A stretch of 64,000 nucleotides of DNA from a bacterium. Lineage in GTDB: Bacteria > UBA10199 > JAIBAG01. Under the pieces are notes generated by a model. It was not told the origin of the DNA. It did no database searches and worked only from the letters and a program-made list of their open reading frames with translations. The stretch lies in contig JAIBAG010000002.1 in assembly GCA_019695305.1 (NCBI GenBank), positions 62,001 through 126,000 of the forward strand, written 5' to 3'. Shown here piece after piece: positions 356 through 63,915 of the stretch. A program made the position numbers and the translations under genes. Each line of letters opens with the position of its first letter. Positions within the stretch are counted from its first letter, which is position 1.

Positions 356-437
356 GCCCAGGTGGTGGAATTGGTATACACGTGCGTTTAAGGGGCGTAT
401 GGGGAAACCCTTGCGGGTTCGAGTCCCGCCCTGGGCA
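356..437 (+). tRNA. tRNA-Leu (anticodon read as AAG; UAA is an alternative register)
   Basis: A cloverleaf can be folded by eye. The acceptor stem GCCCAGG (356-362) pairs perfectly with CCTGGGC (430-436), with A437 as discriminator. The D-arm GTGGAATTGGTATACAC and the T-arm CGGGTTCGAGTCCCG are typical, and the long variable arm (TGGGGAAACCCTTG region) marks class II, Leu. The best five-pair anticodon stem (TGCGT/GCGTA, one T-A, one C-G, one G-C and two G-T) gives loop TTAAGGG, that is anticodon AAG. Shifting by one gives TAA, with a G-G mismatch. CCA is not encoded. Confidence 0.93.
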
Positions 438-443
438 TATGCA

Positions 444-512
444 GGTGGATGGTGGATAGTGAATGGTGGATAGCAAGTCTTTCCATCCACTACCCACCAT
501 CCACCATCCACT
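444..512. repeat. Imperfect inverted repeat between tRNA-Leu and aguB
   Basis: The left arm, about 445-472, is built from GTGGATGGTGGATAGTG-like units. The right arm, about 483-511, is built from the complementary ACCATCCACCATCCAC units. The arms could fold into a long hairpin ending just before the aguB start. It may be a tRNA processing or termination structure or a short dispersed repeat; no T-run follows the right arm. Confidence 0.6.
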
Positions 513-516
513 CTCT

Positions 517-1389: not shown

Positions 1390-2429
1390 GCACTCCTGCA
1401 TCCTTAGGCTACCACATGCCCGCCGAATGGGAACTTCATGAAGGAACCTGGATATCGTGGCCCCATAACGAAAACTCATTCCCTGGAAAAATTCATTTCA
1501 TTTCAAAGTTTTGGGTGGCTATTGCTAAAAACTTACATGAACACGAAAACATCCATATAAATGTAAAAGATAAGGAGATGGAAACAAGCATTAAAACCTT
1601 ACTTCAAGCCCAAAATGTGGACATGAATAAAATTTTTCTGCACCCCTTTGAAACCAACGATTGCTGGGCTCGCGATCATGGTCCAATTTTTATTGTTAGA
1701 AACAAGGACAACAAAAGAGAACTGGCGCTCACCGACTGGGAATTTAACATGTGGGGCGGTAAATACCCGCCTTGGGATTTAGATAACCAGATTCCTCAAA
1801 AAATAGCGAAGCTTTACAATATCCCCTCTTTCAGCCCCAAAATTGTGCTGGAAGGTGGATCTATTGATGTAAACGGCGCGGGTTGTTTACTAACCACCAA
1901 AACCTGCCTGTTAAACAAAAACCGTAACCCACACTTAAGCCAGGTTCAAATTGAACAATATTTAAAAGATTATTTGGGTGTAAAAAAGATTTTATGGCTA
2001 GGCGACGGCATTGCTGGTGACGACACCGACGGCCATGTAGACGATATCACGCGCTTTGTAGCCGCCGATACCATAGTGACGGCCATTGAAAACGATCCCA
2101 AAGACGACAACTTTAAACCTCTTCAGAAAAATTTGGAGCTCTTAAAAACATTTACCGATACCGAGGGCAAACCGTTCAAGATTATCACCATCCCCATGCC
2201 CAAGGGCCAATATGAAGGCGACACACGCATGCCGGCCAGCTATCTCAACTTTTATATTGGTAACGGCGCTGTTTTAGTACCTACATTTAACGATCCTAAT
2301 GATCAGGTGGCCTTAGATACTCTTCAAAAGCTCTTCCCAACCCGTAAAATTGTGGGCGTGTATGCTTACGATTTAGTATGGGGTTTTGGGGCTTTTCATT
2401 GCATTACGCAGCAGCAACCAAAACTCTAA
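1386..2429 (+). CDS. aguA: Agmatine deiminase
   Basis: Converts agmatine to N-carbamoylputrescine and ammonia, feeding AguB encoded just upstream. The 347-residue protein matches the peptidyl-arginine-deiminase-like fold of agmatine deiminases. Visible motifs are GYHMPAEWELHEGTWISWP at the N-terminus, NDCWARDHGP (about residues 93-102), GDDTDGHVDDITRF with the catalytic His/Asp, and the catalytic Cys339 in GAFHCITQQQP near the C-terminus. Order and overlap show a two-gene polyamine operon. No ornithine or arginine decarboxylase is visible in the window. Confidence 0.94.
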   Translation: MSTPASLGYHMPAEWELHEGTWISWPHNENSFPGKIHFISKFWVAIAKNLHEHENIHINVKDKEMETSIKTLLQAQNVDMNKIFLHPFETNDCWARDHGPIFIVRNKDNKRELALTDWEFNMWGGKYPPWDLDNQIPQKIAKLYNIPSFSPKIVLEGGSIDVNGAGCLLTTKTCLLNKNRNPHLSQVQIEQYLKDYLGVKKILWLGDGIAGDDTDGHVDDITRFVAADTIVTAIENDPKDDNFKPLQKNLELLKTFTDTEGKPFKIITIPMPKGQYEGDTRMPASYLNFYIGNGAVLVPTFNDPNDQVALDTLQKLFPTRKIVGVYAYDLVWGFGAFHCITQQQPKL

Positions 2430-2464
2430 AAATTCCAATCCAAACTCAACTCTCCCTCACTCTT

Positions 2465-2628
2465 CTTTTTCAGCCATAGTGATTTTTTATTTTTTCTAAA
2501 AGTATACGGTCCACCTCTAAGTCCCCACCCTTCCATCTAAAGTCATTGGGTCAGAACTTGTGGGGACGTAATATAATAGAGACCATTAGACTTTTAGAAA
2601 AAATAAAAAATCACTCTGGCTGAAAAAG
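2465..2628. repeat. Composite hairpin element with 38-base terminal inverted arms
   Basis: Arms 2465-2502 and 2591-2628 are complementary with a single mismatch, AT-rich, and carry T-runs on both strands. The 88-base interior holds a nested inverted pair GTCCCCAC (about 2520-2527) and GTGGGGAC (about 2569-2576). The element fills the gap between the convergent aguA and CPBP genes and ends exactly at the CPBP stop codon. It may serve as a bidirectional terminator or be a non-autonomous palindromic element. An element of similar layout is at 56759-56905. Confidence 0.8.
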
Positions 2629-3270
2629 TTAACGCAAATAAGCCCAATAAGCCCATTGTGCAAACACATTGCATGCCGCATGAAACAAAACAGAGGCCCA
2701 GATGGTTTTTGTTTTTTCAAACAACCACCCAAATAACAAGGAAGGAAAAAAGATAAGAATATGCCACCACTGAATAGTAATAATACTATGAGATAATGCA
2801 AAAATAAGACTGGTAACAGGCAATGCTAAGCCCACAGGAACGCCTATAATAGGGCGCCGCAAGGTAAAAACCCCGTTTAATTTATTTTGCAAAAACCCTC
2901 TAAAAAAGAATTCTTCCGGCAAACCTACCACAATCAATTGATAAAAAATAAACTCACCCAAGCGGGGCACAGCCTTCCCTGTATAGCCATTTCCCAAAAA
3001 ATGCTGGTATCCATGATTAACCACAACAGCAATGGGAAAAATAATAAGAGAAACAATAAAAAACCACTTAAACGCGCTAAAAAGTTTTTTGGTATCCAGC
3101 ACATCATATTGAGAGCGATCCTTATTTTGAAGGGCAATCACCAAAGGGGCGTACAACAAAATAACCGCCGTAAACACGGCTTTATTAGCCACCACAAAAG
3201 AAAGAGGAATAAAATCGAGGGTCTTAATTAAGGCAATAACTACAAACCAGATGAAAACTAATTTTTTCAT
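2629..3270 (-). CDS. CPBP-family intramembrane glutamic protease; candidate myxosortase
   Basis: A 213-residue polytopic membrane protein of the CAAX/CPBP (Rce1-like, ABI) family. The active-site motif is GLPEEFFFRGFLQNKL (EExxxR), followed by the conserved His segments ALSHSIITIQWWH and LFHAACNVFAQW. Members process prenylated proteins or peptides. Some, the myxosortases, are predicted to process Cys-containing C-terminal sorting signals of the MYXO-CTERM type. Here the gene overlaps lgt by 4 bases at the end of an ileS-lspA-lgt operon (lipoprotein maturation), and two proteins with MYXO-CTERM-like Cys tails lie at 13.6-20 kb. Family assignment is firm; the myxosortase role is inference. Confidence 0.85.
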   Translation of the reverse strand: MKKLVFIWFVVIALIKTLDFIPLSFVVANKAVFTAVILLYAPLVIALQNKDRSQYDVLDTKKLFSAFKWFFIVSLIIFPIAVVVNHGYQHFLGNGYTGKAVPRLGEFIFYQLIVVGLPEEFFFRGFLQNKLNGVFTLRRPIIGVPVGLALPVTSLIFALSHSIITIQWWHILIFFPSLLFGWLFEKTKTIWASVLFHAACNVFAQWAYWAYLR

Positions 3271-4046
3271 TGTTGCACATTAAAGCTTTCGGAATGGGTA
3301 TGAATTTTATGATACCGCCTTAGAAGTAACGCCAACATCCCTACAATACTTAAAAAAACAAGACTGGTAATTTGAGATGTAGAAAGCATGCCGTTTAAAT
3401 ACACGCCCCTATCCGTATCGCCACGCAGATATTCAATCAAAAAGCGCATGATGGGGTAAGCTGTGAAAAATACCAACGCCAACCAACCGTCTGTTTTTTT
3501 CCGTTTGTCCACCCAATGCAAAATAAGAAACGTGATAATAGCATTACACATGTCGTAAATTTGAGTAGCATGCAGCGCGATACCTGGAAAATCATGTCCT
3601 GCATCGCTTGCTGGATTATTAAAAACAAGGTGAAGAGGAAAATGTGTGGGCTTTCCATAGCAGCATCCAGCGCCAATACAACCCACGCGTACAAAAAACA
3701 CAATAATGGGACCAGCAAAAGCAATGAGATCAACATACTTAAGAAGTGGCAATTTTTTAAGCTTTACATATATAATGGTAGTAAGCGCCAAACCAATAAA
3801 AACACCATAGCCAACAAAACCACCCTGCCAAAAATAAAAAACACGGATGGGATCCTCCCAATAATAACCTGGGTATTCGAAAAAAATATGAAATAAACGG
3901 GCCCCAATCACACCAAAAATAGTGCCATAAAGTGAAAGGTCGAGAACAGCAATTTGCGAAAGTCCTCTTTTGGGTGCCAGGTAATAAATATAAAAGGTTG
4001 CAGCCAATGAGGCCACCATCACCATAAAAAAGAAAGTGGGGATCAC
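3267..4046 (-). CDS. lgt: Prolipoprotein diacylglyceryl transferase
   Basis: Transfers diacylglycerol from phosphatidylglycerol to the lipobox cysteine of prolipoproteins in the inner membrane. The 259-residue protein has the expected several membrane segments. Conserved stretches include GARLFHIFFEYPGYYWEDP, GGFVGYGVFIGL, the RVGCIGAGCCYGKPTHFP loop that replaces the usual RxGNFxNGE signature region, ALHATQIYDM, and RFLIEYLRGDTDRG. The gene follows lspA by 42 bases and overlaps the CPBP protease gene. The variant Cys-containing signature resembles the shorter second type of Lgt-like enzymes, so substrate range is less certain than the family. Confidence 0.88.
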   Translation of the reverse strand: MIPTFFFMVMVASLAATFYIYYLAPKRGLSQIAVLDLSLYGTIFGVIGARLFHIFFEYPGYYWEDPIRVFYFWQGGFVGYGVFIGLALTTIIYVKLKKLPLLKYVDLIAFAGPIIVFFVRVGCIGAGCCYGKPTHFPLHLVFNNPASDAGHDFPGIALHATQIYDMCNAIITFLILHWVDKRKKTDGWLALVFFTAYPIMRFLIEYLRGDTDRGVYLNGMLSTSQITSLVFLSIVGMLALLLRRYHKIHTHSESFNVQQ

Positions 4047-4088
4047 AACGGTTTTATAATTGATAATGAATGGAAACGTAAATTCTCC

Positions 4089-4610
4089 TTAACTTTTTGA
4101 TCTCACCATTGTGTAAAGAAGCAAAACAACACCGCAACTAATAGCCATGTCGGCAACATTAAAAGCCGGCCATGTAAGATCAAAGAATACATGTTTTCCT
4201 AGTAAAGAGAAAGAGGCAGTTTTATTTTGCCAATGGAAAGATAAAAAATCAACAACCGACCCTCTAAAAATGCGATCGGTTAAATTGCCAATAGCCCCAC
4301 TAAACACCATACCCACAGCTACAATAGACAGTTTATCCGATGATTTAAGCTGCTTTAAAAAAGAATATAAAAAAGCAATGGCCACACCTGAAAGAACATA
4401 AAAGAATATATCTCTTAAATGTGAATCCCAAGCCGCCAAAAAACCAAAAGCCGCCCCCCTATTACGCACATGCACCAAATCAAAATAACCGGGGATGATG
4501 ACTTTTGAAGCTCCAAAAGTAAAATATTTAACAATAAGTGCCTTGGTAATTTGATCGAGAATATAAATGGGAGGAAAAACCAAAAGAATTTTTTTGATTT
4601 TATGGAGCAT
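4089..4610 (-). CDS. lspA: Lipoprotein signal peptidase (signal peptidase II)
   Basis: Cleaves the signal peptide of diacylated prolipoproteins before the lipobox Cys. The 173-residue aspartic membrane protease has four membrane segments. The two catalytic Asp motifs are visible: GNLTDRIFRGSVVDF and FNVADMAISCGV. The N-terminal DQITKALIVKYF and RNRGAAFGFL segments are also typical. The start codon overlaps the ileS stop by one base (TGATG), so it is co-translated with ileS, a common arrangement. Confidence 0.95.
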   Translation of the reverse strand: MLHKIKKILLVFPPIYILDQITKALIVKYFTFGASKVIIPGYFDLVHVRNRGAAFGFLAAWDSHLRDIFFYVLSGVAIAFLYSFLKQLKSSDKLSIVAVGMVFSGAIGNLTDRIFRGSVVDFLSFHWQNKTASFSLLGKHVFFDLTWPAFNVADMAISCGVVLLLYTMVRSKS

Positions 4611-7450
4611 CAGCTCACCGCCTCTTCGCAGCGTTTACATACGGTAGGATGAACACCGGAAGCACCTACATCTGTTTTATAGTTCCAGCAACGCTCACAT
4701 TTCTTACCCTGGGCAGGAACCACCTGAATAACCAGTTGCGGAACATTCTTACTTTCAAATCCAGAAACGGCTTTGGCGTCTTTAATTTCTACTTGAGACA
4801 CGATGAGGATTTGCGTCCAGTCGGCTTCATATTTTTGAATAAACGATAACGTTTCTCCGCCACCACCCAACAACACTTTGGCATCGAGCGGATGTCCAAT
4901 TTCTTTTTTCTTACGAGCTTCTTCCAAGACTTTTAACACTTCATCACGAATACGCCCGATACGTTCCCAACGTTCGGTAATTTCCTTATTTTTCCATTCT
5001 TCATTAATAGCTAACTTATCTACCAAAAAGATACTGCTCGCATCCGTTTTAGTTTTGGGCATAAAACCCCAAATTTCTTCGGAGGTAAATGACAGGATGG
5101 GCGCCATGAGCGGTAACACTAAACGTAGGATATCGTACATGGTGGATTGTGCCGAACGACGCAAGGCACCACCGGCACGATCGCAATAGAGACGATCTTT
5201 TAAAATATCAAGATACAAAGCCGAAAGTTCAACGGTAAAAAACTTATTAAGGCTGTGATGCACAACATGGAATTCGTAGTCGTCATAGGCCTTTTCCATT
5301 TTTTCGGCAACGGTTGCGGCCATCGATAAAGCATAACGGTCAATTTCTTCGCGCTTGGCATATGGAACCAAATCAGTATCGGGATTAAAATCGTACAAAT
5401 TCCCCAACATAAAACGACACGTGTTGCGGATTTTTCGGTACACTTCGGCCAAAACTTTAATGATTTCGTCCGATACACGGATATCGTTTCGATAATCTTC
5501 GGCCGCTACCCACAAACGCAACAGCTCGGCCCCCGTTTCGGATAAGATTTTTTCGGGTGGCACATAATTTTTAGCCGATTTGGAATATTTTTTTCCCTGT
5601 CCATCCACCACAAATCCGTGCGTAAGGCATGTTTTGTACGGGGAACGATCGCGCGTGGCCATAGAGGTAAGAAGCGAAGAATGAAACCAACCTCGATGTT
5701 GATCGGAGCCTTCTAAATACAAATCGGCGGGGGAACTAAGCCCACTAAAGCGTTCCAATACGGCTGCGTGTGTAACACCAGAATCAAACCAAACATCCAA
5801 AATACTTTTTTCTTTTTCAAACTCAACGCTACCACACTCACAAGTAGTACCCTGGGGCAATAACGGGCCAGTTGCGCGCCACCAGGCATCGGCACCTTCT
5901 TTTTCAAACGCCGCTACAATAAAAGCGCCCGATTTTTCGTCTAAATGCACTTTGTGGCATTTTTTACAGGTATGCACCGGAATAGGAACACCCCAAATAC
6001 GCTGGCGCGATAAACACCAATCGGGGCGCGATTCAATCATGCCATAAATACGTTCGCGCCCCCACGAGGGAACCCATTTAATATTGCCGGTAATAGTGCG
6101 TAGTGTTTTTTTGCGTAAATCGTTGTGAGCCAGCGAGCAAAACCATTGTTCGGTAGCGCGAAAAATAACAGGGTTTTTACAACGCCAGCAATGTGGATAT
6201 TTATGCTTGAGCATTTGCCCCGGGGGATTGAGCAAAATTTTTTGTTCGGCCAAATATTTTACAATTTCGTTATTGGCCTTTTTAATAAAAAGACCTTCCC
6301 AACTGCGAATAGCCGGGTCGCGCGCGGTTTCTAGAGAACCTACCATCAGTTTTCCCTGGGCATCTATGGGGCATAAAGTTTCTAAGCCAAACTTTTGACC
6401 AATCACATAATCTTCTTGACCATGACCCGGTGCAATATGCACCACACCAGTGCCTGCTTCGGTGGTTACATGAAAACCTTCCACTACTTTTGAATTGCGT
6501 TTTAAAAAAGGATGAGAGGCTATCAAATCGTGGCTTAAAAGTTCAGTTCCCGAATAAGAAGCCACAATTTCCTGTTTTCCAATAAACTCGATGTCTTTTA
6601 AAAACGTAGTCAGTAAATTTTCGGCTACAATATAATAGTCATCGTCTATTTTAATACTCACGTAACAAATGTCTAAGCCCAACGCCAAACCTAGGTTAGC
6701 CGGCAAGGTCCACGGGGTAGTTGTCCAAATTACAAAATATACATTTTTTCCCGTAAACGATTTGTCTTCATCGTTCAGTTTTTCGGGGTTATTAATTTTA
6801 AATTTTACGTAAATGGAAGGGGACGATAATTCTTCGTACTCTACTTCGGCTTCAGCTAATGCCGTGTTACAGGATGTACACCAGTATACGGGCTTTTTAC
6901 CCTGATACACATAACCCTGACTATACAGTTTTACAAATTCACGGGCAATATCGGCTTCAAATTGGTTAGTGAGGGTTAAATACGGACGGTCCCATTCGGC
7001 AAAAATACCCAGGCGTTTAAACTCATCTTTTTGAAAATTAATAAAACGGTGAGCATAAGTACGGCAAGCCTCGCGGCGCACCAAGGGGTTGTGAACCTGT
7101 TCGGGAGGCAAGTTGGCTTCGGTAAGTTCTTTAACAGCGCCCAATTCAATAGGAAGCCCATGGCAATCCCAGCCCGGAACAAAAGGTGCATAAGCACCGC
7201 TAATATTTTTATATTTGATAATAATATCTTTTAAAACTTTATTAAGAATATGCCCAAAGTGGATGTGCCCGTTGGCATACGGAGGGCCATCATGCAAAAT
7301 AAAACTGGGTTTCTTTTCATTTTTAGCAAGCAGCTTTTTGTAAGTGCCTTCTTTTTCCCAACGCTCCAAAAATTGAGGTTCACGCTTGGGGAGCTCGGCC
7401 TTCATAGGAAAATCGGTTTTAGGAAGATTTAAAGTTGCCTTATAATCCAT
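4610..7450 (-). CDS. ileS: Isoleucine--tRNA ligase
   Basis: Charges tRNA-Ile. The 946-residue class I synthetase has the HIGH motif in HGPPYANGHIHFGH (about residues 55-68), a CP1 editing domain (GTGVVHIAPGHGQEDY), the KMSKS equivalent GKKYSKSAKNYVPP (about residue 620) and a C-terminal zinc finger with CERCWNY...VCKRCEEAVS. It heads the ileS-lspA-lgt-CPBP operon. No T-box leader is evident in the short region between it and the divergent gene at 7614. Confidence 0.97.
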   Translation of the reverse strand: MDYKATLNLPKTDFPMKAELPKREPQFLERWEKEGTYKKLLAKNEKKPSFILHDGPPYANGHIHFGHILNKVLKDIIIKYKNISGAYAPFVPGWDCHGLPIELGAVKELTEANLPPEQVHNPLVRREACRTYAHRFINFQKDEFKRLGIFAEWDRPYLTLTNQFEADIAREFVKLYSQGYVYQGKKPVYWCTSCNTALAEAEVEYEELSSPSIYVKFKINNPEKLNDEDKSFTGKNVYFVIWTTTPWTLPANLGLALGLDICYVSIKIDDDYYIVAENLLTTFLKDIEFIGKQEIVASYSGTELLSHDLIASHPFLKRNSKVVEGFHVTTEAGTGVVHIAPGHGQEDYVIGQKFGLETLCPIDAQGKLMVGSLETARDPAIRSWEGLFIKKANNEIVKYLAEQKILLNPPGQMLKHKYPHCWRCKNPVIFRATEQWFCSLAHNDLRKKTLRTITGNIKWVPSWGRERIYGMIESRPDWCLSRQRIWGVPIPVHTCKKCHKVHLDEKSGAFIVAAFEKEGADAWWRATGPLLPQGTTCECGSVEFEKEKSILDVWFDSGVTHAAVLERFSGLSSPADLYLEGSDQHRGWFHSSLLTSMATRDRSPYKTCLTHGFVVDGQGKKYSKSAKNYVPPEKILSETGAELLRLWVAAEDYRNDIRVSDEIIKVLAEVYRKIRNTCRFMLGNLYDFNPDTDLVPYAKREEIDRYALSMAATVAEKMEKAYDDYEFHVVHHSLNKFFTVELSALYLDILKDRLYCDRAGGALRRSAQSTMYDILRLVLPLMAPILSFTSEEIWGFMPKTKTDASSIFLVDKLAINEEWKNKEITERWERIGRIRDEVLKVLEEARKKKEIGHPLDAKVLLGGGGETLSFIQKYEADWTQILIVSQVEIKDAKAVSGFESKNVPQLVIQVVPAQGKKCERCWNYKTDVGASGVHPTVCKRCEEAVS

Positions 7451-13570: not shown

Positions 13571-16081
13571 TTAATAGCGCTCTTTACGCAAGCGTAAAAT
13601 AAAGGGAGGAACTAAAGTAACTACAATAAGAACTAAAGGTGATAAATCGGTATGTGCCACAGGTTCAAGGCTGGCTGCACAACCACCCACAAAATTAAGG
13701 CTGGCCACGCTACAAGCACCCGATACGCTGGTTTGATCAAAAACTATTTGATTGTGATCGGGATCGGCTTCACCCTGATCTAAAATATCGCCAATACTGG
13801 GAGTCCAGGTACCACCGGCACCTAAACAATCGGCTTCGTTATCAATAGCGGGAGTAGGCTCTACCGGAGTATCGGGGTTTTCCGAAGGTTCATCTGGTGT
13901 TTCTTCAGTGGTGCATGTAGAGGAGCAACCATCTCCATTTAGCTTATTGCCATCATCGCATTCTTCACCGGTTTCTACCACACTGTTACCACAAACAATT
14001 AAAGTACAATCCTCTTTACAAGAGGCTGTTCCATCACATTCTTCTTCATCTCCTACTACACCATCGCCACATATATTTGGAATTACAGGAACGGGAAAAG
14101 TACAGTTATTTAAGCATTCATCCGTATTATCATCATTACCGTCATCGCAATCTTCCGGCTCTTCTTTAATACCATTTCCACAATCGGGAGCATCGCAAGC
14201 ATCGCCTATATGGTCGCCATCGGCATCTGGAAAGCCCTCATCAACGCCATTAATCCCGTTATCGTCAATACCGTTACAAATTTCAGGATCACAAAAATCA
14301 GGAACTTGATCCTGATCAGCATCGGCACTGTCATTGCCTCCAGCACAAATATCCTGACAATCTTTTACACCATCGCCGTCAGTATCGGGAAAGTTTTCGT
14401 CTATGCCATTAATCCCATTATCATCAATTCCATTGCAAATTTCCACATCCATACAATTGGCAATGCCATCGTGGTCGCTATCGCGAAAACCTTCGTCTAT
14501 GCCTCTAATCCCGTTATCGTCAATACCGTTACAAATTTCGGGATCACAAAAATTGGGCTTTCCATCATGATCGGCATCGGCATGGTCGTCGCCACCTTTG
14601 CAAATATCCAAACAGTTTTTTACCCCGTCGTGATCAGAATCGGGAAAGCCTTCATCTATTTTACCGTCACCATCATTATCAAATCCATCGCATACTTCTA
14701 TATCGGCGCAATCGGCCACTCCGTCGCCGTCGGTATCAGGGAAACCCTCGTCTATGCCATCTATGCCGTTATCATCAATCCCATTACAAGCTTCAGGATC
14801 ACAAAAATCGGGCTTCTGATCATGATCAGCATCTGCATGATCATCACCACCCGCACAAATATCCATGCAATCTTTTACACCATCACCATCACTATCAGGA
14901 AAACCTTCGTCAATCCCATCTATACCGTTATCATCAATTCCATTACAATCTTCCGGATCGCAAAAATCGGGCTTTTGATCATGATCAGCATCTGCATGAT
15001 CATCACCACCCGCACAAATATCTATACAGTCTTTTACACCATCACCATCACTATCAGGAAAATTTTCATCAATACCATTTATACCATTGTCGTCTTTGCC
15101 ATTACATATTTCAGGGTCACAAAAATCAGGCTTGCCGTCGTGATCGGCATCGGCTTTATCATCACCACCCGGGCAAATATCTATGCAATCTTTTACACCA
15201 TCACGGTCGGTATCAGGATAACCTTCATCAACATCACCATCACCATCGTTATCTTTTCCATCGCAAATTTCTCTTTTTTTGCAAGAATTAGAGCATTCAT
15301 CGTTGTTATTGTTGTTTCCATCATCACATTCTTCACCAGGATAATCTCCCACAATACCATTGGGACAAAAGCAAGATAATGGAGCTCCTTCGGCAGGTGT
15401 TCTGTCAATATCAACAATACCGCCATTCCCATCACATTCCTGCCGTGTACATCCATCGGACGAAATGCCTATATCTGTTCCTGCAGAAACAAAGGTTTCT
15501 ACTACACCTAACTCAGGATCACACTCTACAATAACACATTCGGATGGGGGCTGTGTGGGAGTAGAAACATCAACCAGCTGGCAAGGTTCCCAACCGGCAT
15601 CACCAATACACTTTTGTTCCCAGCGGGCACAAACACCTTCAACTGGTGTGGTTCCACCGGTATAATCTTGTGTAACATAGTCGGTACACTCTCTTACCTT
15701 TCCCGGTACACAACCACCACGCGTAGTACATTGATTGGTACAACTGTCTAAATCATTCCTGTTGCCATCGTCACATTCTTCTTTTCGAGGATCTACTCGC
15801 CCATTGCCACATTCTTCTATTTGACAAATAGGATTACAGCCATCACCAATAGCATTGTTACCATCATCACATTCTTCAAAACTTTGTTTGGTACCGTCAC
15901 CGCAGGAAGGGCGGCAATTAGAGGGGCAACCATCACCGTCAATATTGTTACCATCATCACATTCTTCACCGACATCAAGATGGCCGTCACCGCACACACC
16001 GGCATAAGAGACTTGAGCCGTAAAGCAAATAGCCATGAAAACGCATGCATACAGAATGAAGTTAACAACTTTCATATTCAC
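13571..16081 (-). CDS. Secreted Cys-rich and Asp-rich repeat protein with GGCAAS C-terminal sorting-like tail
   Basis: An 836-residue surface protein. Residues 1-28 form a signal peptide ending VSYA. Next come DUF4215/Myxococcus Cys repeats (CGDG...EECDDGNN..GDGC) to about 130 and an unassigned Cys-rich part. Eight MopE/thrombospondin-3-like Asp-rich units follow, with CNGIDDNGIDGIDEGFPD, DGDGVKDC and DADHDQKPDFCDPE (about 53 residues each, two shortened to 32). Further Cys repeats come next, then a tail (ADCLGAGGTWTPSIG to FVGGCAAS), a membrane helix and RKERY. The repeats suggest Ca or Cu binding and disulfides, and the tail suggests processing at Cys. A sigma-28-like promoter lies at 16138-16164. 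Confidence 0.85.
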   Translation of the reverse strand: MNMKVVNFILYACVFMAICFTAQVSYAGVCGDGHLDVGEECDDGNNIDGDGCPSNCRPSCGDGTKQSFEECDDGNNAIGDGCNPICQIEECGNGRVDPRKEECDDGNRNDLDSCTNQCTTRGGCVPGKVRECTDYVTQDYTGGTTPVEGVCARWEQKCIGDAGWEPCQLVDVSTPTQPPSECVIVECDPELGVVETFVSAGTDIGISSDGCTRQECDGNGGIVDIDRTPAEGAPLSCFCPNGIVGDYPGEECDDGNNNNNDECSNSCKKREICDGKDNDGDGDVDEGYPDTDRDGVKDCIDICPGGDDKADADHDGKPDFCDPEICNGKDDNGINGIDENFPDSDGDGVKDCIDICAGGDDHADADHDQKPDFCDPEDCNGIDDNGIDGIDEGFPDSDGDGVKDCMDICAGGDDHADADHDQKPDFCDPEACNGIDDNGIDGIDEGFPDTDGDGVADCADIEVCDGFDNDGDGKIDEGFPDSDHDGVKNCLDICKGGDDHADADHDGKPNFCDPEICNGIDDNGIRGIDEGFRDSDHDGIANCMDVEICNGIDDNGINGIDENFPDTDGDGVKDCQDICAGGNDSADADQDQVPDFCDPEICNGIDDNGINGVDEGFPDADGDHIGDACDAPDCGNGIKEEPEDCDDGNDDNTDECLNNCTFPVPVIPNICGDGVVGDEEECDGTASCKEDCTLIVCGNSVVETGEECDDGNKLNGDGCSSTCTTEETPDEPSENPDTPVEPTPAIDNEADCLGAGGTWTPSIGDILDQGEADPDHNQIVFDQTSVSGACSVASLNFVGGCAASLEPVAHTDLSPLVLIVVTLVPPFILRLRKERY

Positions 16082-16246: not shown

Positions 16247-19200
16247 TCAGTGCCGTCTTATTGTAACTCTCAGGAAAATAATAGGAACAAAACCTAAAGC
16301 AATCACTATCAAAAACCAGAGTGGAATTGCTTGAAACGTACCTATTGGTACAATACTCGCCGCACAACCACCCACAAATTTAGCTTCGGCTCTATGGCAA
16401 ACACCAGCGCTTGCATCCCCTTCAAGAACAACACTATTGTCGGTTAAATCTTCCTTACCTTCTTCAATAATTTGACCAATTGATGGTTTCCAAGTACCAC
16501 CAACAGCAATGCAATCATTTTCACTCTCTACACCGGGTACAGGTTCAAGCTTACACACCGAGGAGCAACCATCACCATTTTGATTATTACCATCATCGCA
16601 TTCTTCATTGAGTTCGGCATTAATATCACCATCACCACATTTTTCTTCACATTCAGGGATAGTATCGTCATCTGCAGGATCTTCTATAGGTGTTCCTACA
16701 CAATTGCCAGACGCACAAGAAAAAGTAGTACAGTTATCGTTTGAACCACATGCTGTTCCATCGGCCACGGGCGTTGTGATAATCCCTTCACTCGCCACAC
16801 ACGATGTTGTCACACACGTATTATCCGAAGCGGGAATTTCGATGGGAGATCCCACACATTCACTGGTGGCATTGCACGCATAGGCTTGGCATTTGTCGGG
16901 GCCTTCACAAGCCGTTCCCTGGGATGCAGGCCGTATAGAACAGGCCGACCACGAATGATCATCACGACAAATACGTTGCGTTACTTCGCACACCTCAAGC
17001 ATCGCACCTGGCAACTTACAACCTTCTATAGTTTCTGGCACATCACATTCAAATTGACAGGCGTCACACCCGTCTCCACTAATATCATTCCCATCATCGC
17101 ATTCTTCGGCCACAATATCATCAGCTGGAGTGAATTTTGATCCCAAATCTTCTTTTTCTACAATACCGTTTCCACAAACAGGTCGTGGATCACAGGCATC
17201 GCCTAAGCCATCACCATCTGTATCCTTTTGCAAATCGTTTTCAACCTTGGGGCAATTATCACATTCATCTCCCCAACCATCACTATCGGTATCAACAAAA
17301 GTTTCATCAGACTTACCATCTCCATTATCATCAAGCCCGTTGCATTTTTCTAAATCACATTTATTGGGGATCCCATCGCCATCAGCATCTTTGGTATCAT
17401 CCCCACCGGCACAAATATCGATACAATCTTTAAAACCATCGCCATCGGTATCTGGAAATCCCTCGTCCACACCGTTGTATCCATTATCATCTATGCCATT
17501 ACATATTTCTCGATCACAAAAATTGGAGATACCATCGCCATCGGCATCGCGAAAACCACCATTAGTTACAGGATCTTCGTCTACCAATCCATCCCCGTCA
17601 TTATCCTCACCATCACATTCTTCCACATCACAAACATCTCCTACATGATCTCCATCCACGTCTGCCTGGCCTAGATTTACTATTGATGGACAATTATCAC
17701 AAGCATCACCCCAATGATCACCGTCCGAATCACCGCCTGAACCTTCATCATAAATTCCATCTCCGTCATCATCCAGACCATTACAGGGATCTTCAGAAAG
17801 ACAGTTTGCATCACAACCATCACCCGAAACCAAATTGCCATCGTCACATTGTTCATGACCTATCCAAAGATGCCCATCACCACAACGAGCAATAGAACAT
17901 GATACACACGCATCCATAGGGTCTTGATTTCCATCATCGCAACCTTCATGACCACTCCATACAGCACCATCCCCGCATACAGCCTGTTTGCAGGCCACAC
18001 AGTTATCGGTTACAATTGTATTACCATCATCACATTGTTCTATATCGGCAGGATCAGTGGGACTTGCTACAGTTTGCACAACCCCATCACCACACACATT
18101 AAACTGACAGGTCGATTTGCAAAAATTATGATTATCGGTATCGCCATCATCACATTCATCTACCCAACCCGCTCTGCCATAAATACCATTAATGCGGGAA
18201 TCGCCGCAAAACTCACGTTTACAACTGGCCGAACAACCATCACCATCTAAGTTTCCTCCATCATCACACTCATCTAAAACGCCCGTTGTTCCATCAATAT
18301 TCACAACACCATCGTCGCAACGTTCTAAAATACAAGTAGAAGAACAACCATCACCATTTATATTATTGCCATCATCGCATTCATCTACCCAAGCGCTTTC
18401 ACCATAAATGCCGTTTACCACTCCATCGCCACAAAATTCCTTTTTACAAAGAGAGTCGCAACCATCATTATCGTCAAGATTACCATCATCGCATACTTCA
18501 TCAGCTTCTTTATCGCCATTGCCACAATCTTCAATAACTATCCTTAAGGCATTTGTAACATCATAGTACTCATTAGATTCAAAATTTCCCAATGCCAACA
18601 ATCGGTTTTCAGAATCTAAGATAGAACCCACTACGTAGTCACCACCACCCTGGGGATTAAAATCTTGGGATACAAGACCCCGATAAAAAGCACCCCCCTC
18701 TTTAGGAACACCTAGCGAATCAGTAGCGGCAACAAAAATATGCCCTTCCATATAGGGAGCTCCAGGTAAATATCCATCTTCCACGTATTGACTCCCCAAC
18801 ACCATAAAATTGCCGGAAGCATCAATCCAAAGATTGTTTAAAGACACATAATTATCAAAATTTGTAACAAGTATAGGGAGATTAATAAGAAGAAAGCCTG
18901 AGTGTGCAAATGAAGTATCAAGCGTTCCATCAGCACGAAGTGCACCCAAAAAAAACTTTTGATAAGTAGCCGTCTGATTATAAACGGGGTCTGGATCTGT
19001 TCCAGCTACAATCCATCGATGATCACTAGATTCTTTAAATTTAACGGTAGGCTTTACAGGATATGGAGCTTGCCATAACACGGCAGACCTAGGGACTCCA
19101 CCAATAACTGACGAACCAAAAGTAGTATCTAAGTGGCCATCTGAATTAAGTTGAAAAATAAGAACATCTCTTTCTCCGTCAAAAGTCGTCAGTAATCTTA

Positions 19201-20050
19201 TTTTTCCATTGGCTCCATCCCTCATATCTGACACCACAGCTTGAGAAGCAAGAGCAGGATAAAGCTGTGGTAAAATACTATCTAAAAACACAAACCCATC
19301 CGGCGATCCATTTAAATCGTAATCTTCTCCAAAATTTGAATCCAATCCGCCAAGAGAATTTAATTTTAATAAAATTTGTCGGGTAGGGAATACTGCCGTG
19401 CCGTTAGATTCAACCCATCCCAAATATAATTGGCCTCCACTTTCAGTAGACAAAGCTGCTGTTAATGAATGTGCATTAAGTGTTACCAAAGAGCCGCCCT
19501 GAGGAAATCGAATGGTTACTTTTTTAATATTTAACGTATCTTGGACAGTATCATAGCGCACGCGGTAAAACTGCTCGGCACCAGTAAAACCAAATACCCC
19601 TGTTATTTCAATAAAGTCAGGATTAAGAAGATTTTGTAAAAGAGGACCAGGTTCAGAACGCAGGGAAATTAGCGAATAATCGCTTATTGGAGGCACATTT
19701 AGAATTGTATCAATCTCTATTTGTCGATAAAAATTGTGCCTGTAAAAGTTTAAATCTGGGGCACCACTTTCCAAAACATGCGCCAAGTAGATAAATTCCT
19801 TTGAGTCATAAGATTGCCCCACAATCCAAGCTCCATCTAGATTGTCGGATAAAATTGAGTAATTAACACCTGCGGGATCTTGTCCAATTGGAGGCTGGTA
19901 AACAAAATCAAAGATATATTCAGCCCGGCCAGAAGTTCCAAAACTTAAATCTAAATCTCCCGATGCCGCATACGCTTGTGAGAAGCTGAAAGTGAATAAA
20001 AATATAAAGGGGATAAATAAAAGATGAAAACGATTTAAAAAATAACGCAT
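16247..20050 (-). CDS. Secreted delta-60 / Cys-rich repeat protein with GGCAAS C-terminal sorting-like tail
   Basis: A 1267-residue surface protein. A signal peptide (about 1-29, ending QAYA) is followed by about 470 residues with delta-60 repeats (GDLDLSFGTSGRAEY, GGLDSNFGEDYD, GHLDTTFGSS, GTLDTSFAHSG), probably a beta-propeller. DUF4215-type Cys repeats (CGDGVVNGIYG..DECDDGNNINGDGC) fill about 500-740, then MopE-like and thrombospondin-3-like Asp-rich repeats to about 970, then more Cys-rich segments. The last 75 residues match those of the 836-residue neighbour: GGTWKPSIG, FVGGCAAS, one membrane helix, TIRRH. The same sorting fate is inferred. It has its own sigma-28-like promoter upstream. 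Confidence 0.85.
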   Translation of the reverse strand: MRYFLNRFHLLFIPFIFLFTFSFSQAYAASGDLDLSFGTSGRAEYIFDFVYQPPIGQDPAGVNYSILSDNLDGAWIVGQSYDSKEFIYLAHVLESGAPDLNFYRHNFYRQIEIDTILNVPPISDYSLISLRSEPGPLLQNLLNPDFIEITGVFGFTGAEQFYRVRYDTVQDTLNIKKVTIRFPQGGSLVTLNAHSLTAALSTESGGQLYLGWVESNGTAVFPTRQILLKLNSLGGLDSNFGEDYDLNGSPDGFVFLDSILPQLYPALASQAVVSDMRDGANGKIRLLTTFDGERDVLIFQLNSDGHLDTTFGSSVIGGVPRSAVLWQAPYPVKPTVKFKESSDHRWIVAGTDPDPVYNQTATYQKFFLGALRADGTLDTSFAHSGFLLINLPILVTNFDNYVSLNNLWIDASGNFMVLGSQYVEDGYLPGAPYMEGHIFVAATDSLGVPKEGGAFYRGLVSQDFNPQGGGDYVVGSILDSENRLLALGNFESNEYYDVTNALRIVIEDCGNGDKEADEVCDDGNLDDNDGCDSLCKKEFCGDGVVNGIYGESAWVDECDDGNNINGDGCSSTCILERCDDGVVNIDGTTGVLDECDDGGNLDGDGCSASCKREFCGDSRINGIYGRAGWVDECDDGDTDNHNFCKSTCQFNVCGDGVVQTVASPTDPADIEQCDDGNTIVTDNCVACKQAVCGDGAVWSGHEGCDDGNQDPMDACVSCSIARCGDGHLWIGHEQCDDGNLVSGDGCDANCLSEDPCNGLDDDGDGIYDEGSGGDSDGDHWGDACDNCPSIVNLGQADVDGDHVGDVCDVEECDGEDNDGDGLVDEDPVTNGGFRDADGDGISNFCDREICNGIDDNGYNGVDEGFPDTDGDGFKDCIDICAGGDDTKDADGDGIPNKCDLEKCNGLDDNGDGKSDETFVDTDSDGWGDECDNCPKVENDLQKDTDGDGLGDACDPRPVCGNGIVEKEDLGSKFTPADDIVAEECDDGNDISGDGCDACQFECDVPETIEGCKLPGAMLEVCEVTQRICRDDHSWSACSIRPASQGTACEGPDKCQAYACNATSECVGSPIEIPASDNTCVTTSCVASEGIITTPVADGTACGSNDNCTTFSCASGNCVGTPIEDPADDDTIPECEEKCGDGDINAELNEECDDGNNQNGDGCSSVCKLEPVPGVESENDCIAVGGTWKPSIGQIIEEGKEDLTDNSVVLEGDASAGVCHRAEAKFVGGCAASIVPIGTFQAIPLWFLIVIALGFVPIIFLRVTIRRH

Positions 20051-59020: not shown

Positions 59021-60184
59021 TTATTCTTCAGCATCGGCATCGCTGGGCACATCTTCGGTTGGGGGTGGTTCTAGAGGTTCTTCATGCACCACCGGAGGCG
59101 GGATTTCTCCGTTAGTATTGGAAGGCTTGTTGCGTACCCTAAACGATGGAGCTGGCATAGCAGGTTTTTCAACAGTCTCTTCCGGCGGCGGTGGTGGTGC
59201 CGTTTTGGTAGGAACCGTAGGTGGTGGCAAAGGCTCTTCTTCTTCAACCGGTCCCGAATTACCGCCAGCCATACCTGTTAAATCGAATGTACCAATCAAA
59301 ACGCGTGGTCGCGACAAACTTCCCGAAATATTAAGAGGATAAGAACCATCTTCCAATTTTTGTTTATCTATCAAAACTGCTATAGGAAAAGCCGACTTTA
59401 CCTTTTCAGAAAAATTAAAATTACCCGATACATTAGCTCTCATAAGCGTTGGTTTTTTATTAAGCATAAGTCGCCCTTTTAAATCGAGCATCACATCGGG
59501 TCCGGGAATTTTAAACGATTCAATTTCTAATTTCCCTTTAGCCATATTCATTTTTAAAACAACGTCTTGAGCATCCGCTAAAGACAAATCGGGAAAATCT
59601 AAATCAAAACCAGGCATAGGAGTAATTTTAAAGGGAGTAGCTGTAAGCTTTTTAATTTTTAAATCAATTTTACCTTCATTTTTATTAATTTGATCGGCAT
59701 ACAAATCGAGATCAATACTGCCGTTTAACGTACCTTCTACACCAGTACCCAAATACTTTTTAAGAATGAGCATTTCACCCAAAGGAAAATTTGAAATTTT
59801 TACATCCAGTTCACTTTCCGTTTTAGAAGCCGTAATATCGCCTTCAAGAGAGCCCTTTTTTGATCCCCCTACAAAAGAAGCCTCTAGCCTGCCAGTCAAA
59901 AGCGGAAAATAATGAATCCCCACTTTTAATTCATCAAAACCTACTATCACTACATCGGCACCTTTTTCTTCGGTGTGCACCTGAAAATTAGTAAATTTTG
60001 TTTTAAAAATTATACCCGGGGCAATTTTTTCAACTGTAATACGGTATTTACCGCCCGACTGTTGTTCTACACGGGTGAGCAGGTTTTGAATAATAGGTTC
60101 AAAGGGAAAGTATAAAAATAAAAATAAAAAAAAGAAAAAAATACCGGCAACAATGTTGAGTGTCCACACAACAAGCTTATTCAC
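59021..60184 (-). CDS. gspN: Type II secretion system protein GspN (AsmA-like)
   Basis: A 387-residue bitopic protein: an N-terminal helix (VVWTLNIVAGIFFFFLFLFLYFPF, read in part), then a long periplasmic beta-rich region, then a Pro/Glu-rich tail. It matches the GspN/AsmA-like component found with gspK-L-M in delta-type systems. GTG 60184 was chosen because AAGGAG lies 6 bases upstream (60191-60196) and the longer ATG at 60208 lacks a site. The start overlaps gspM by 8 bases. Confidence 0.85.
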   Translation of the reverse strand: MNKLVVWTLNIVAGIFFFFLFLFLYFPFEPIIQNLLTRVEQQSGGKYRITVEKIAPGIIFKTKFTNFQVHTEEKGADVVIVGFDELKVGIHYFPLLTGRLEASFVGGSKKGSLEGDITASKTESELDVKISNFPLGEMLILKKYLGTGVEGTLNGSIDLDLYADQINKNEGKIDLKIKKLTATPFKITPMPGFDLDFPDLSLADAQDVVLKMNMAKGKLEIESFKIPGPDVMLDLKGRLMLNKKPTLMRANVSGNFNFSEKVKSAFPIAVLIDKQKLEDGSYPLNISGSLSRPRVLIGTFDLTGMAGGNSGPVEEEEPLPPPTVPTKTAPPPPPEETVEKPAMPAPSFRVRNKPSNTNGEIPPPVVHEEPLEPPPTEDVPSDADAEE

Positions 60185-60773
60185 CGGTTTCTCCTTCTTT
60201 GGGAACAATAGAGGTAATTTGAAAACGCGCCATAATTTCGTCGCGCTTACGATAATCGGTGGAGATTTCCATTTTTTTAACTAATACAGCCGACTTAGAA
60301 TTAGACTCTAACGCATACAAAAATGAAACAAGCTGATCTAAACTAACTTTTGACAATACCCCTTCAACTCCCTCCTCATCAAAATAATCACCGGTATCAA
60401 TAGGAAGAGGCGTCAATTTTTGCATATTGTCCTTAAGCCCAGCCTCGTTAGCCATCGACTCTACAATAGTAACCAGAGAACCACCTCTTTTTGACTTTGA
60501 AATTTCATCTTTAAGGACTGCCAGCTCTTCCTTTACATGCTGGTACTCATTCATTTTTTCCATCAAACCAACCTGATTTTTTTTATCTTTATTATATTTG
60601 GTTTCAAGTTTAGAAATTTTTGATGAGGCACAAGTTACCGGCAAAACCAGTAAAATAAGGCATAAAAAGGCAATCCCAATAATAACAAAAATCTGCTCAC
60701 GCTCTTCTAAATTTAAAAAGCTATTGTACAGATCATCGGTTTTAAAGCGCTCTAACAGCGAATATTTGGCCAT
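60177..60773 (-). CDS. gspM: Type II secretion system protein GspM
   Basis: A 198-residue inner-membrane protein with one helix near residues 28-50 (VIIGIAFLCLILLVLPV), a coiled coil, and a small ferredoxin-like periplasmic domain. Order after gspL and before gspN supports the assignment. It touches gspL (TGA/ATG overlap of one base). GspM anchors GspL in the assembly platform. Confidence 0.86.
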   Translation of the reverse strand: MAKYSLLERFKTDDLYNSFLNLEEREQIFVIIGIAFLCLILLVLPVTCASSKISKLETKYNKDKKNQVGLMEKMNEYQHVKEELAVLKDEISKSKRGGSLVTIVESMANEAGLKDNMQKLTPLPIDTGDYFDEEGVEGVLSKVSLDQLVSFLYALESNSKSAVLVKKMEISTDYRKRDEIMARFQITSIVPKEGETGE

Positions 60774-62440
60774 TATTCTTCGTCTCCTTTTTGGGCCGTC
60801 TTTTTGCCTTCAGGTTCAGTTTTAGGAGTTGGGGGTTCTTCTCCCACCTTAATATCCATAGAAAGAGAAAAACGTATTTCATCGCGCAAACCCTTTTCAA
60901 CCCGGATAGTTGATATATTGGCAAATAATGAAGACGTTGCTAACAGTTCTTTCATTTTATCTACAGCTTCAAACGATACTGTACGCCCTTCAAGCCGCAC
61001 CTGATTATCGATAATATTGAATTTATCAACATCAATGGCCACATCTTCCTTGGGAGGAAATTTAGAGGACACTTCAAGTAAAATTTCTAACGGTGAAGGT
61101 CCTTCTTTAAGAGCACGTATGGCTTCAAGCTGAGGTTTTAACTCGTTTACACGGCCATTCACAATAGTAAGAAGTTTAGCAACATCACTTTTTTCCTGTC
61201 CTTTTAATTCTTTGGGTAAAAGTTTGATAGCAGCCTTCACAAGAGATGCATTCATAGTTTGAGTACGCGATTGCCAGGTGTAATACGAAAAACCAAAATA
61301 AAAAGCGCCCAACAGAAACAAAACAAAAACCCACACGCCCAATTGCTTAATTTCGCCACCTAATGCTTTAATATCCTTTTTATAAGAAAATTCACCGGTG
61401 CGATAATTAATGGTTGCACCGCGAATTGGATAAATAACACGTAAACTTTGGGCTAACGATAACGGGATAATATCTTTCACTTCGTCTGCATGCGATAGCT
61501 TGTGTGAAACATACTCAAGAGAATCGAGCGTAGTAACATTCATGCGCAAGGCCGATGAAAGCACATCCACCAAACCCGGCAATTTAGACCCACCACCGCA
61601 TAAATACAAACCACCCCATTCTCGTTTGGGGTATACCTGGCCAAAACCCAAATAGGTTTGACGAATGGCAACTATAAGCTCTTCGGCTACTTTTTGGCAC
61701 AACAGCGATATCTGATCGAGTTCATCTTCTCTATTAGATACCTTGCCGCGATCCATTTTTAAACTCTCGGCTTTATCCTGATTCAGACGAAACGCTTTTT
61801 GAATAGCCCGTGTAAAGTTTAACCCGCCAATGGTAATAGTGCGCGCATAGGCCAGTTTATTACCATCCATAATGCATATATTCGTTTTTTTATGGCCAAT
61901 ATCCACCATGGCATACAGGGTATTATCGGGAACCATGGCGGCATTGGCAATAAACGACAAATCAACCATATCAACCCCTACATATTTGGGGTCGAGCCCT
62001 GCAATTTGAAACATGTCTAAAAATTTTACAAAACGAACACGAGGCACATAAGTACACAATACAGTGGAGCGCCCGTTTTGGGACGATAACATATGGTAAT
62101 CCACCATTAAATCTTCCATGGGTAAAGGCACATAGCTTTCCAACTCAAACTCTAGGGTTTGTTCAATTTTTTTGGCATTTGTAAAAGGAAGTTCAATAAT
62201 GCGCGTAGAAACCAGATGAGCTGGAAGACTGGCCGAAATTACATCGGTGGTAAATTCGTTTTTTTCAAAAATATGACGTAGACCGGCACTAACTGCTTCT
62301 TCATACGTTAGGCGGTTATTTTGCTGATTGATCACATGCTCCACAAAACGCACCACTTCAAACTCACCCTTTTGGCGCGTAACCTCACAAACTTTTATTG
62401 AATGGGAACCAATATCGATGCCAACAATGTTTTGAGCCAT
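60773..62440 (-). CDS. gspL: Type II secretion system protein GspL (PilM-like)
   Basis: A 555-residue assembly-platform protein. Residues 1 to about 340 are an actin-like PilM fold (VGIDIGSHSIKVCEV, MVDIGHKKTNICIMDG, LYLCGGGSKLPGLVDVL). A membrane helix lies at about 370-392, and the C-terminal periplasmic part is PilN-like (FNIIDNQVRLEGRTVSFEAVDKM). The fused PilM-PilN arrangement is GspL. It would recruit the ATPase GspE. Confidence 0.9.
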   Translation of the reverse strand: MAQNIVGIDIGSHSIKVCEVTRQKGEFEVVRFVEHVINQQNNRLTYEEAVSAGLRHIFEKNEFTTDVISASLPAHLVSTRIIELPFTNAKKIEQTLEFELESYVPLPMEDLMVDYHMLSSQNGRSTVLCTYVPRVRFVKFLDMFQIAGLDPKYVGVDMVDLSFIANAAMVPDNTLYAMVDIGHKKTNICIMDGNKLAYARTITIGGLNFTRAIQKAFRLNQDKAESLKMDRGKVSNREDELDQISLLCQKVAEELIVAIRQTYLGFGQVYPKREWGGLYLCGGGSKLPGLVDVLSSALRMNVTTLDSLEYVSHKLSHADEVKDIIPLSLAQSLRVIYPIRGATINYRTGEFSYKKDIKALGGEIKQLGVWVFVLFLLGAFYFGFSYYTWQSRTQTMNASLVKAAIKLLPKELKGQEKSDVAKLLTIVNGRVNELKPQLEAIRALKEGPSPLEILLEVSSKFPPKEDVAIDVDKFNIIDNQVRLEGRTVSFEAVDKMKELLATSSLFANISTIRVEKGLRDEIRFSLSMDIKVGEEPPTPKTEPEGKKTAQKGDEE

Positions 62441-62520: not shown

Positions 62521-63915
62521 TCACCTCAGCCGATAATACAACATAGGCCATTTATACGGGTTAGCCCCGTCGTTTTTTATAACACTTTCAATGGTTACTT
62601 CCGTATCCCCTACACGACCGTGCGCCTTTACCGTAAAAACCTTGTTGTCGGTTGTAATCAGGTTTTTGAACTGCAAATCACAACCGGGAATATTACCCGC
62701 AGCAGATGTAGATTTTTTAGGCTTTTGTTCCTCACCAGGAGTTTCAGTTTCGGAAGGAGGCTCAATCACCTCGCCCGTATCCGTTGATGTATCCGATAAT
62801 CCCAAATCCTGATTTAAGGCTGTTGCCATAGCCGCGGTATCGGGACATTCCGCTAATATTTTGGTTACAAGGGCCTCCATACGCACATCATCAGCCTCCA
62901 TAGGCTGAGTGCAGCCGGCATTAGAGGTAAAATAGGTAATTAGCGCTTTCATATCGTCTTCCTTGGTGTCTGATATACACACATTCATTTTATCGGACCC
63001 GGAGTATATGGTAAGAAGTGGCGCCAGCTTTTTGTAAATACTATCGGTCATGCCGGCTACTAAGCGAATTTCGGATAAACTCAAATATTTTGCATTTTTA
63101 ACCGGGTAAGATACTCCACGATACAAATTATCTTCGTTACCGCGTTGAACATTATCAAATTCGTTTATAGCATTATTCACATCCACCCAATCGGCCAGGG
63201 CATTTACTAAATCGATACGTTCTTCATCGTCCTTAAAATCGTCCTTAAAAGTTTCCTGCTTTAAAATGTTAAGTAACAGTTTCTTTTTAAAATCATAATT
63301 TTTACTTGCTGTTTCAAGCCCTGAAAAGCGGTTTAAGTCAAATTTTGTAGATTCCTCCGAAATTTCAATAGAAAAATCGCCATCAAAATCTAAAAATTCA
63401 CCGGCCTTTTCCTTATCAAAACCGTTTGCCATATTTTGATCCATTAAGGAATTATCCATGCCTTTTTCAAGCATACTTTTATCTGCATCTTCATCGGGCT
63501 TTTCGGTAACAGGCAAAGCTTTTTCCTCTTCAGAATCTCCACCTTCTTTAGTAGCTTCACTTCCCTCACCTGTACCACCATTTAAAAAAATGGCCCTTAA
63601 AGCCTCGGTAGAAATAGGGTATTGTTTGTAAAATGGCTGTATGTTTTGGCCTTTTAAATACTCCTTATATTTCTCAGCTTTTTTTTCACCTTCTCGTTGC
63701 ATGAGTAAAACAATTTTAGAAAACTGAAAAGCCGATTGAGCCATGTAGTAGGCTTGTAATCTTTCTTTACCGTTTACTGCCAATTGGTAATCAATATCTG
63801 TTTTGTAGGCGAGCTCAACTACGGCTGTGGCCAGCACCGCAATACTAGACAAAACAAGCAGTAGGGCTACCCCACGCTGATTGTGATGTTTTAAGATTTT
63901 TTTTAAACGTTTCAT
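62521..63915 (-). CDS. gspK: Type II secretion minor pseudopilin GspK
   Basis: A 464-residue minor pseudopilin that caps the pseudopilus tip. The prepilin peptidase site is QRG|VALLLVLSSIAVLA, with Gly just before the hydrophobic helix. The large size, insertion-rich central domain (EGSEATKEGGDSEEEKALP low-complexity) and SAM-like repeats (IDLVNALADWVDVNNAINEFD) fit GspK. The start overlaps the preceding gene by 1 base (TAATG). Confidence 0.9.
   Translation of the reverse strand: MKRLKKILKHHNQRGVALLLVLSSIAVLATAVVELAYKTDIDYQLAVNGKERLQAYYMAQSAFQFSKIVLLMQREGEKKAEKYKEYLKGQNIQPFYKQYPISTEALRAIFLNGGTGEGSEATKEGGDSEEEKALPVTEKPDEDADKSMLEKGMDNSLMDQNMANGFDKEKAGEFLDFDGDFSIEISEESTKFDLNRFSGLETASKNYDFKKKLLLNILKQETFKDDFKDDEERIDLVNALADWVDVNNAINEFDNVQRGNEDNLYRGVSYPVKNAKYLSLSEIRLVAGMTDSIYKKLAPLLTIYSGSDKMNVCISDTKEDDMKALITYFTSNAGCTQPMEADDVRMEALVTKILAECPDTAAMATALNQDLGLSDTSTDTGEVIEPPSETETPGEEQKPKKSTSAAGNIPGCDLQFKNLITTDNKVFTVKAHGRVGDTEVTIESVIKNDGANPYKWPMLYYRLR

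Follow-up and report, generated by a model that had tools for sequence, protein, structure and literature searches.

Organization of the Locus

The stretch of DNA analysed here (the window, 64,000 nucleotides) carries on its minus strand a gene cluster in the order ileS-lspA-lgt2-mrt. The upstream member, ileS (4610..7450, 946 aa), was assigned from its open reading frame and from relatives in which a homologue adjoins lspA. It is followed by lspA (4089..4610), the sole gene for signal peptidase II in the genome (PF01252, Peptidase_A8, 130.5 bits with a cut-off of 25; TIGR00077, 104.8 against 73.95 bits). Then come lgt2 (3267..4046), a diverged second Lgt paralogue in the class that adjoins mrt (PF01790, 162.7 bits, cut-off 24.9), and mrt itself (2629..3270), whose 213-aa product is assigned from the Mrt_core profile, its catalytic residues, its place in a tree and its structural model as a myxosortase-family CPBP intramembrane glutamic protease. 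The junction of ileS and lspA reads TGATG, and the stop codon of lgt2 lies over the start codon of mrt in a 4-bp overlap (ATGA). Thus, the CPBP gene does overlap lgt in line with lspA, as the initial annotation had described. The best mrt start shares this 4-bp overlap with the lgt2 stop at 14 of 27 loci.

The start of lgt2 lacks an ATG. A Shine-Dalgarno-like AAGGAG lies a few bases 5′ of an in-frame ACG (4077-4079, minus strand), and this ACG (4079-4077) aligns with the methionine of relatives; ACG is used here as a rare start codon, or else the sequence has an error at this place. It may be the true start of lgt2, whereas the GTG at 4046, which the ORF finder had picked, probably is not.

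Just downstream of mrt, on the opposite strand (463-2429, plus), a nitrilase-like and an agmatine deiminase-like gene overlap by 4 bases. These names were given by sequence reading, and homologues also adjoin mrt in one other genome of the collection (G003, locus L014). Elsewhere in the window, two adjacent and very long open reading frames of 1137 and 2265 aa (28239-38451, minus) have no Pfam match.

The Protease and Its Family

In Pfam, the product of 2629-3270 is Rce1-like (65.7 bits, cut-off 22.4). It also exceeds the cut-off of the NCBIfam profile Mrt_core NF040914 (117.9 bits against 100; 119 in the genome scan), a cut-off that was reached in none of 14 control genomes. The catalytic residues of CPBP proteases are found as E119/E120/R124, F157/H161 and H197/N201, corresponding to the motifs EExxxR, FxxxH and HxxxN. 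P118, E119, E120, R124, F157, H161 and H197 are invariant in 24 relatives, and N201 is kept in at least 90% of them. The predicted structure (pLDDT 95.4) has SpdC and MmRce1 as its closest solved folds.

A tree of 66 proteins places the Mrt proteins of the class in a single clade (97*) nested in the myxosortases. The 18 generic CPBPs, one of them the other CPBP of this genome, all fall outside the myxosortases. The initial annotation had named a grouping with bacteriocin-immunity or housekeeping CPBP proteins as the result that would refute a candidate myxosortase, and the tree does not group the protein with housekeeping CPBPs. Three myxosortase families, MrtX, MrtC and MrtP, were reportedly named and defined in a 2024 paper. 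Mrt nests in the myxosortases and yet belongs to none of these three equivalogs (MrtX, 110.4 bits against a cut-off of 180; MrtC, 120.5 against 195; MrtP, 149.6 against 250). Judged from its sequence, with the Mrt_core score, the catalytic residues, the tree and the scores below the three cut-offs taken together, Mrt is a member of the myxosortase family, in an unnamed subgroup.

Conservation of the Gene Order

The class was sampled with 46 genomes, the genome of the window being G000. In 39 of them, the block lspA-lgt2-mrt stands uninterrupted on a single contig, with mrt running past the contig end in two of the 39. In the remaining seven, either a contig break interrupts the block or the entire block is absent, lspA included. 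It is split at contig ends in G025 and G026, the contig stops after lgt2 in G031, and a fragment of mrt opens a contig in G040. G001, G023 and G038 have no mrt, lgt2 or lspA, and G023 and G038 have no lgt of any kind. Since lspA is missing too, and in two cases every lgt, these three absences point to assembly gaps. Tail-bearing genomes without this CPBP family, which the initial annotation had named as a refutation, were thus seen only where the assembly lacks the entire block. None of the 46 genomes has mrt separate from lgt2. Such a conserved gene order across the class indicates that the lspA-lgt-CPBP arrangement is not due to chance. In about two dozen class genomes, lgt1 lies immediately upstream, mostly as lgt1-ileS-lspA-lgt2-mrt, and lspA is single-copy in 41 of the 42 class genomes possessing it.

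Outside the class, neither lgt nor lspA was seen in the flanking sequence examined at 74 mrt loci (mostly of Myxococcota; 58 of the 74 loci span at least 10 kb), and no Lgt2 orthologue adjoins mrtX in M. xanthus.

Lgt2 as a Second, Altered Lgt

The initial annotation had taken the neighbour of the protease simply as a Cys-specific lipid transferase. It is indeed a PF01790 Lgt, but the diverged second paralogue and not the housekeeping copy. Complete class genomes have a canonical lgt1 (about 188-223 Pfam bits), located elsewhere or further upstream, together with the diverged lgt2 (about 148-175 bits), and it is always lgt2, not lgt1, that stands beside mrt. Two lgt genes occur throughout the class, versus 4 of 45 Mrt-negative relatives; a published survey counted two in about 1,300 of 12,956 genomes (PMC13251419). 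When a canonical Lgt is defined by PF01790 together with R143 and R239 (E. coli Lgt numbering, as for all Lgt positions here), the Lgt2 of the window passes. It stays below the NCBIfam equivalog cut-offs (TIGR00544, 91.6 bits against 118.9; NF000778, 138.4 against 334). Its model matches the Lgt structure 5azb with a TM score of 0.73.

The divergence is concentrated at defined positions. E. coli Lgt is inactive when Y26, F102, H103 or G142 is altered or when G138 becomes I or V; Y26F, H103Y and G142V each have this effect, and the HGGL site was put forward as the place where the peptide substrate binds (PMC4728403). In a later study, arm-2, H103 and the head domain were credited with substrate specificity (PMC13251419). 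The Lgt2 of the window has F26, G102, Y103, V105, I138 and V142, and is thus without the Y26, the G142 and the HGG site that E. coli Lgt needs. Among 41 Lgt2 sequences, F26 is found in 35, F100 in 39, S or G at position 102 in all, and A or V at 105 in 37; G138 is replaced in all 41 and G142 in 35, while position 103 is Y, W, I, L or F. The 39 Lgt1 sequences keep Y26, F102, G105, G138 and G142 in essentially all cases. Counted over these five cavity and peptide-site positions (26, 102, 105, 138 and 142), 32 of the 41 Lgt2 proteins have five changes and three have four, against none in all 39 Lgt1 and at most three in the Lgts of Mrt-negative genomes (n = 44). Position 103 is mostly Y in Lgt1 as well, so that a change there is not special to Lgt2. 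R143, R239, E243 and R246 are intact in 41 of 41 Lgt2 proteins. The residue pattern suggests an enzyme in which the chemistry would have been kept and the peptide site rebuilt.

Lgt2 is monophyletic (41 sequences, support 1.0) with a long stem. In the trees it groups with Lgts of Polyangia, Kofleriaceae and Oligoflexales (0.995 in FastTree; 94 by SH-aLRT in a subset). This placement does not favour a simple recent duplication of Lgt1 as the source of Lgt2, but a single clade of Lgt1 and Lgt2 is not rejected by the AU test (p 0.077).

Several other Lgt families were considered. A third lgt (family f14, about 245-253 bits) lies near tailed proteins in some genomes; its neighbour is a large unrelated gene and its canonical residues are all intact, and it was set aside. 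The cavity signature is not universal to Mrt-bearing genomes, since it is strong only at one locus (L262, genome G080) and partial at another (L244, genome G094) and in one myxobacterial paralogue, and some Mrt-bearing genomes have a canonical Lgt only. The Lgts at L262 and L244, which belong to an unrelated branch, share S102, A/V105 and V/I142 with Lgt2, perhaps by convergence. A second diverged Lgt family in Myxococcota has F26, S102, D151 and D243 (L267, from the M. xanthus genome, L268-L271, L274 and L275; L286 in the class), and is another candidate for the missing MYXO-CTERM acyltransferase. The sole Lgt of genome G078 resembles this family; that genome has no Mrt_core protein and has one Cys-tailed protein (L310, L373). 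Finally, a third and very divergent PF01790 protein, changed in the HGGL region, occurs in a few class genomes (L123 on contig C18 of G000, L283, L284 and L285).

Cys-Tailed Proteins and Type II Secretion Genes

Two Cys-tailed proteins, anticipated in the initial annotation, are encoded on the minus strand of the window and are candidate substrates. One has 1267 aa (16247..20050) and the tail FVGGCAASIVPIGTFQAIPLWFLIVIALGFVPIIFLRVTIRRH, and the other has 836 aa (13571..16081) and the tail FVGGCAASLEPVAHTDLSPLVLIVVTLVPPFILRLRKERY. Both have an N-terminal signal-like segment and myxo_disulf_rpt/DUF4215 repeats, and both end with FVGGCAAS, a hydrophobic segment and a basic end. The GGCAAS tail is thus real on these two proteins, but it is a local form and does not serve as a general tail. 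As a tail, GGCAA(S) was found in only three proteins, the two of the window in their own genome and one in 18 relatives, other matches being due to chance. The general feature is GGxC followed by a helix and RR, with the Cys invariant. At least six tailed proteins are encoded in the genome: the two in the window, one at C10:77275, a tandem pair at C1:319971 and C1:322225, and, where a contig ends, an incomplete one (C22:100). At positions 1-4339 of locus L320 (contig C1), two paralogous tailed proteins, each of about 700 aa, are encoded side by side and have near-identical tails, GSGSSCSL...RKRMS and RKKIS.

With TIGR03901 (MYXO-CTERM, cut-off 20 bits), the two window tails are not among the matches listed at E<=1, and the best score in the genome is 19.1 bits (on C22). 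The same profile recovers genuine Cys tails at the C-terminus in many genomes of the class, with 11 of 46 above the cut-off and 17-18 matches at E<=1 in two genomes. A class tail profile (A2) matches in 46 of 46 genomes at E<=1 and in 37 at E<1e-3, a count to be read knowing that the profile was built partly from the same genomes and that its weak matches may be plain helix plus RR. Outside the class, 53 genomes of different genera were compared. Taking Mrt-bearing as at least 80 bits and judging tails by reading, a C-terminal Cys tail is present in 7 of 8 genomes with Mrt versus 1 of 45 that lack it (Fisher p 4e-7, with no correction for descent). At the official Mrt_core cut-off, the same 53 genomes give 6 of 7 versus 2 of 46 (p 8e-6).

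Type II secretion genes are also present in the window, again as had been read from the sequence. GspK (62521..63915, minus) exceeds its cut-off (PF21687, 41.4 bits against 26.2). Beside it are a GspL-like protein of the PilM_2 fold (60773..62440, minus), which is PilM/GspL-like (PF11104, 112 bits, above its cut-off) with a weak T2SSL match below the cut-off, and a GspM-like protein (60177..60773, minus) just below its cut-off (PF04612, 26.4 bits against 27.8).

A Possible C-Terminal Lipid-Anchoring Pathway

Cleavage of MYXO-CTERM by the MrtX of M. xanthus depends on the Cys, and the authors of that study proposed a model in which Sec export is followed by lipidation of the Cys by an Lgt-like enzyme, cleavage by MrtX and export by the type II secretion system (PMC11980579). 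The MYXO-CTERM acyltransferase was not identified; Lgt was the leading candidate, with the topology of the substrate as a difficulty (PMC11980579). The operon of the class fits this scheme at each step. We consider it rather probable that ileS-lspA-lgt2-mrt provides the inner-membrane components of a pathway for C-terminal lipid anchoring, in which Lgt2 lipidates the tail Cys and Mrt then cuts. The Cys-tailed proteins would be carried across the inner membrane by Sec, with their C-terminal helix still holding them there. Lgt2, as a specialised Lgt paralogue, would add a diacylglyceryl group or a similar lipid to the tail Cys, Mrt would cut the tail after this lipidation, and the processed protein would be exported, with the type II secretion system as a possible route. 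LspA and Lgt1 would keep serving ordinary N-terminal lipoproteins. The data show the identities of the genes, their conserved coupling, a second lgt across the class, the tails and the changes in the active site; from these we infer that Lgt2 acts on the tail, which lipid it adds, in what order the steps follow and by what route export takes place. Lgt2 is singled out as the lipidating enzyme because of its operon coupling, the separate canonical Lgt and the active-site changes. The single lipid-anchor pathway suggested in the initial annotation gains from the class-wide second Lgt beside mrt, with the lipidation of the tail Cys and the cleavage of the tail here still as predictions. The more specific claim is that Lgt2 would be a transferase dedicated to C-terminal lipoproteins, the first of its kind, which keeps the phosphatidylglycerol chemistry, has its peptide site rebuilt for a Cys on a C-terminal helix of opposite topology, and works as a pair with the myxosortase whose gene follows its own. 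On this claim we stand evenly divided.

The gene order ties Lgt2 to LspA as well as to Mrt, and Lgt2 could therefore serve N-terminal lipoproteins. Mrt would then still be the tail protease, but the tail Cys would be lipidated by general Lgt activity (Lgt1 or both copies), Lgt2 would act on a subset of N-terminal lipoproteins, and mrt would sit in the operon as a fellow envelope lipoprotein gene. The sole lspA lies in the same operon, lgt1-ileS is often just upstream, and MrtX is functional in E. coli, a host with an ordinary Lgt only (PMC11980579). In addition, one lgt only was seen in three Mrt-bearing genomes outside the class (G055, G089 and G094). From these genomes, and from M. xanthus with its mrtX lacking an adjoining Lgt2 orthologue, it follows that a dedicated Lgt is not needed everywhere; it would be a lineage specialisation. 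However, general lipidation leaves unexplained why the second and not the canonical copy overlaps with mrt throughout the class, and why residues on which ordinary Lgt depends are missing from Lgt2 alone. We regard it as rather unlikely.

Those losses can also be read differently. Since Y26F, H103Y and G142V kill E. coli Lgt, the activity of Lgt2 could be lost or changed, and Lgt2 might not perform the phosphatidylglycerol reaction on Cys at all but use another lipid donor, act as a lipid chaperone, or attach a lipid at the new C-terminus after cleavage. Such a role would agree with the replacements at 26, 138 and 142 and the varied position 103, changes of the kind that inactivate the E. coli enzyme (PMC4728403), but it is improbable given the invariant R143, R239, E243 and R246, the fold close to 5azb, and the Y at 103 that is usual in Lgt1 too. 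That the CPBP gene encodes a general housekeeping protease with no link to tails, for example clearing signal peptides left by LspA, is suggested by the adjacent lspA and by how common CPBP proteins are, another being present in this genome, yet it is hardly credible for a protein that passes Mrt_core, nests in the myxosortases and tracks Cys tails outside the class.

Relation to Known Systems and Significance

The proposed pathway, with Lgt2 acting before Mrt, resembles the MrtX/MYXO-CTERM system of M. xanthus (PMC11980579; NF040914, NF040593/NF040594/NF040674) in the CPBP glutamic protease core, the tail of Cys, helix and Arg-rich end, the repeat-rich secreted proteins that bear the tails, and the type II secretion genes in the genome. 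It differs in that the class Mrt scores below the MrtX, MrtC and MrtP cut-offs and is encoded in an lspA-lgt2 operon. Lgt2 shares with Lgt (5azb; PF01790) the fold, R143/R239/E243/R246 and a single-domain membrane architecture; unlike Lgt, it has Y26, F102, G105, G138 and G142 mostly replaced, scores below the equivalog cut-offs, always lies beside mrt and is not classed as a canonical Lgt. The fold of Mrt and its EExxxR, FxxxH and HxxxN motifs recall the CAAX protease Rce1 (MmRce1, 4cad), which acts after another enzyme has lipidated a C-terminal Cys, as is proposed for Mrt. However, the match to MmRce1 has a TM score of 0.59 and 13% identity, and the substrate of Mrt would be a periplasm-side tail and not a cytoplasmic CAAX box. 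Rhombosortase/GlyGly-CTERM (PMC3237569) likewise combines a tripartite C-terminal signal, an intramembrane protease and type II export, but rhombosortase is a rhomboid serine protease and GlyGly takes the place of the Cys motif.

The gene order of the class points to Lgt2 as a testable candidate for the lipid-attaching step that is still missing from surface anchoring of the myxobacterial type. Lgt2 and Mrt would make a concrete enzyme pair, with Lgt1 as a paired control and defined residues for swapping. If the proposed pathway is true, there are bacteria in which an Lgt evolved for the purpose lipidates proteins at their C-terminus, and myxosortase-type sorting would extend to a deep uncultured class.
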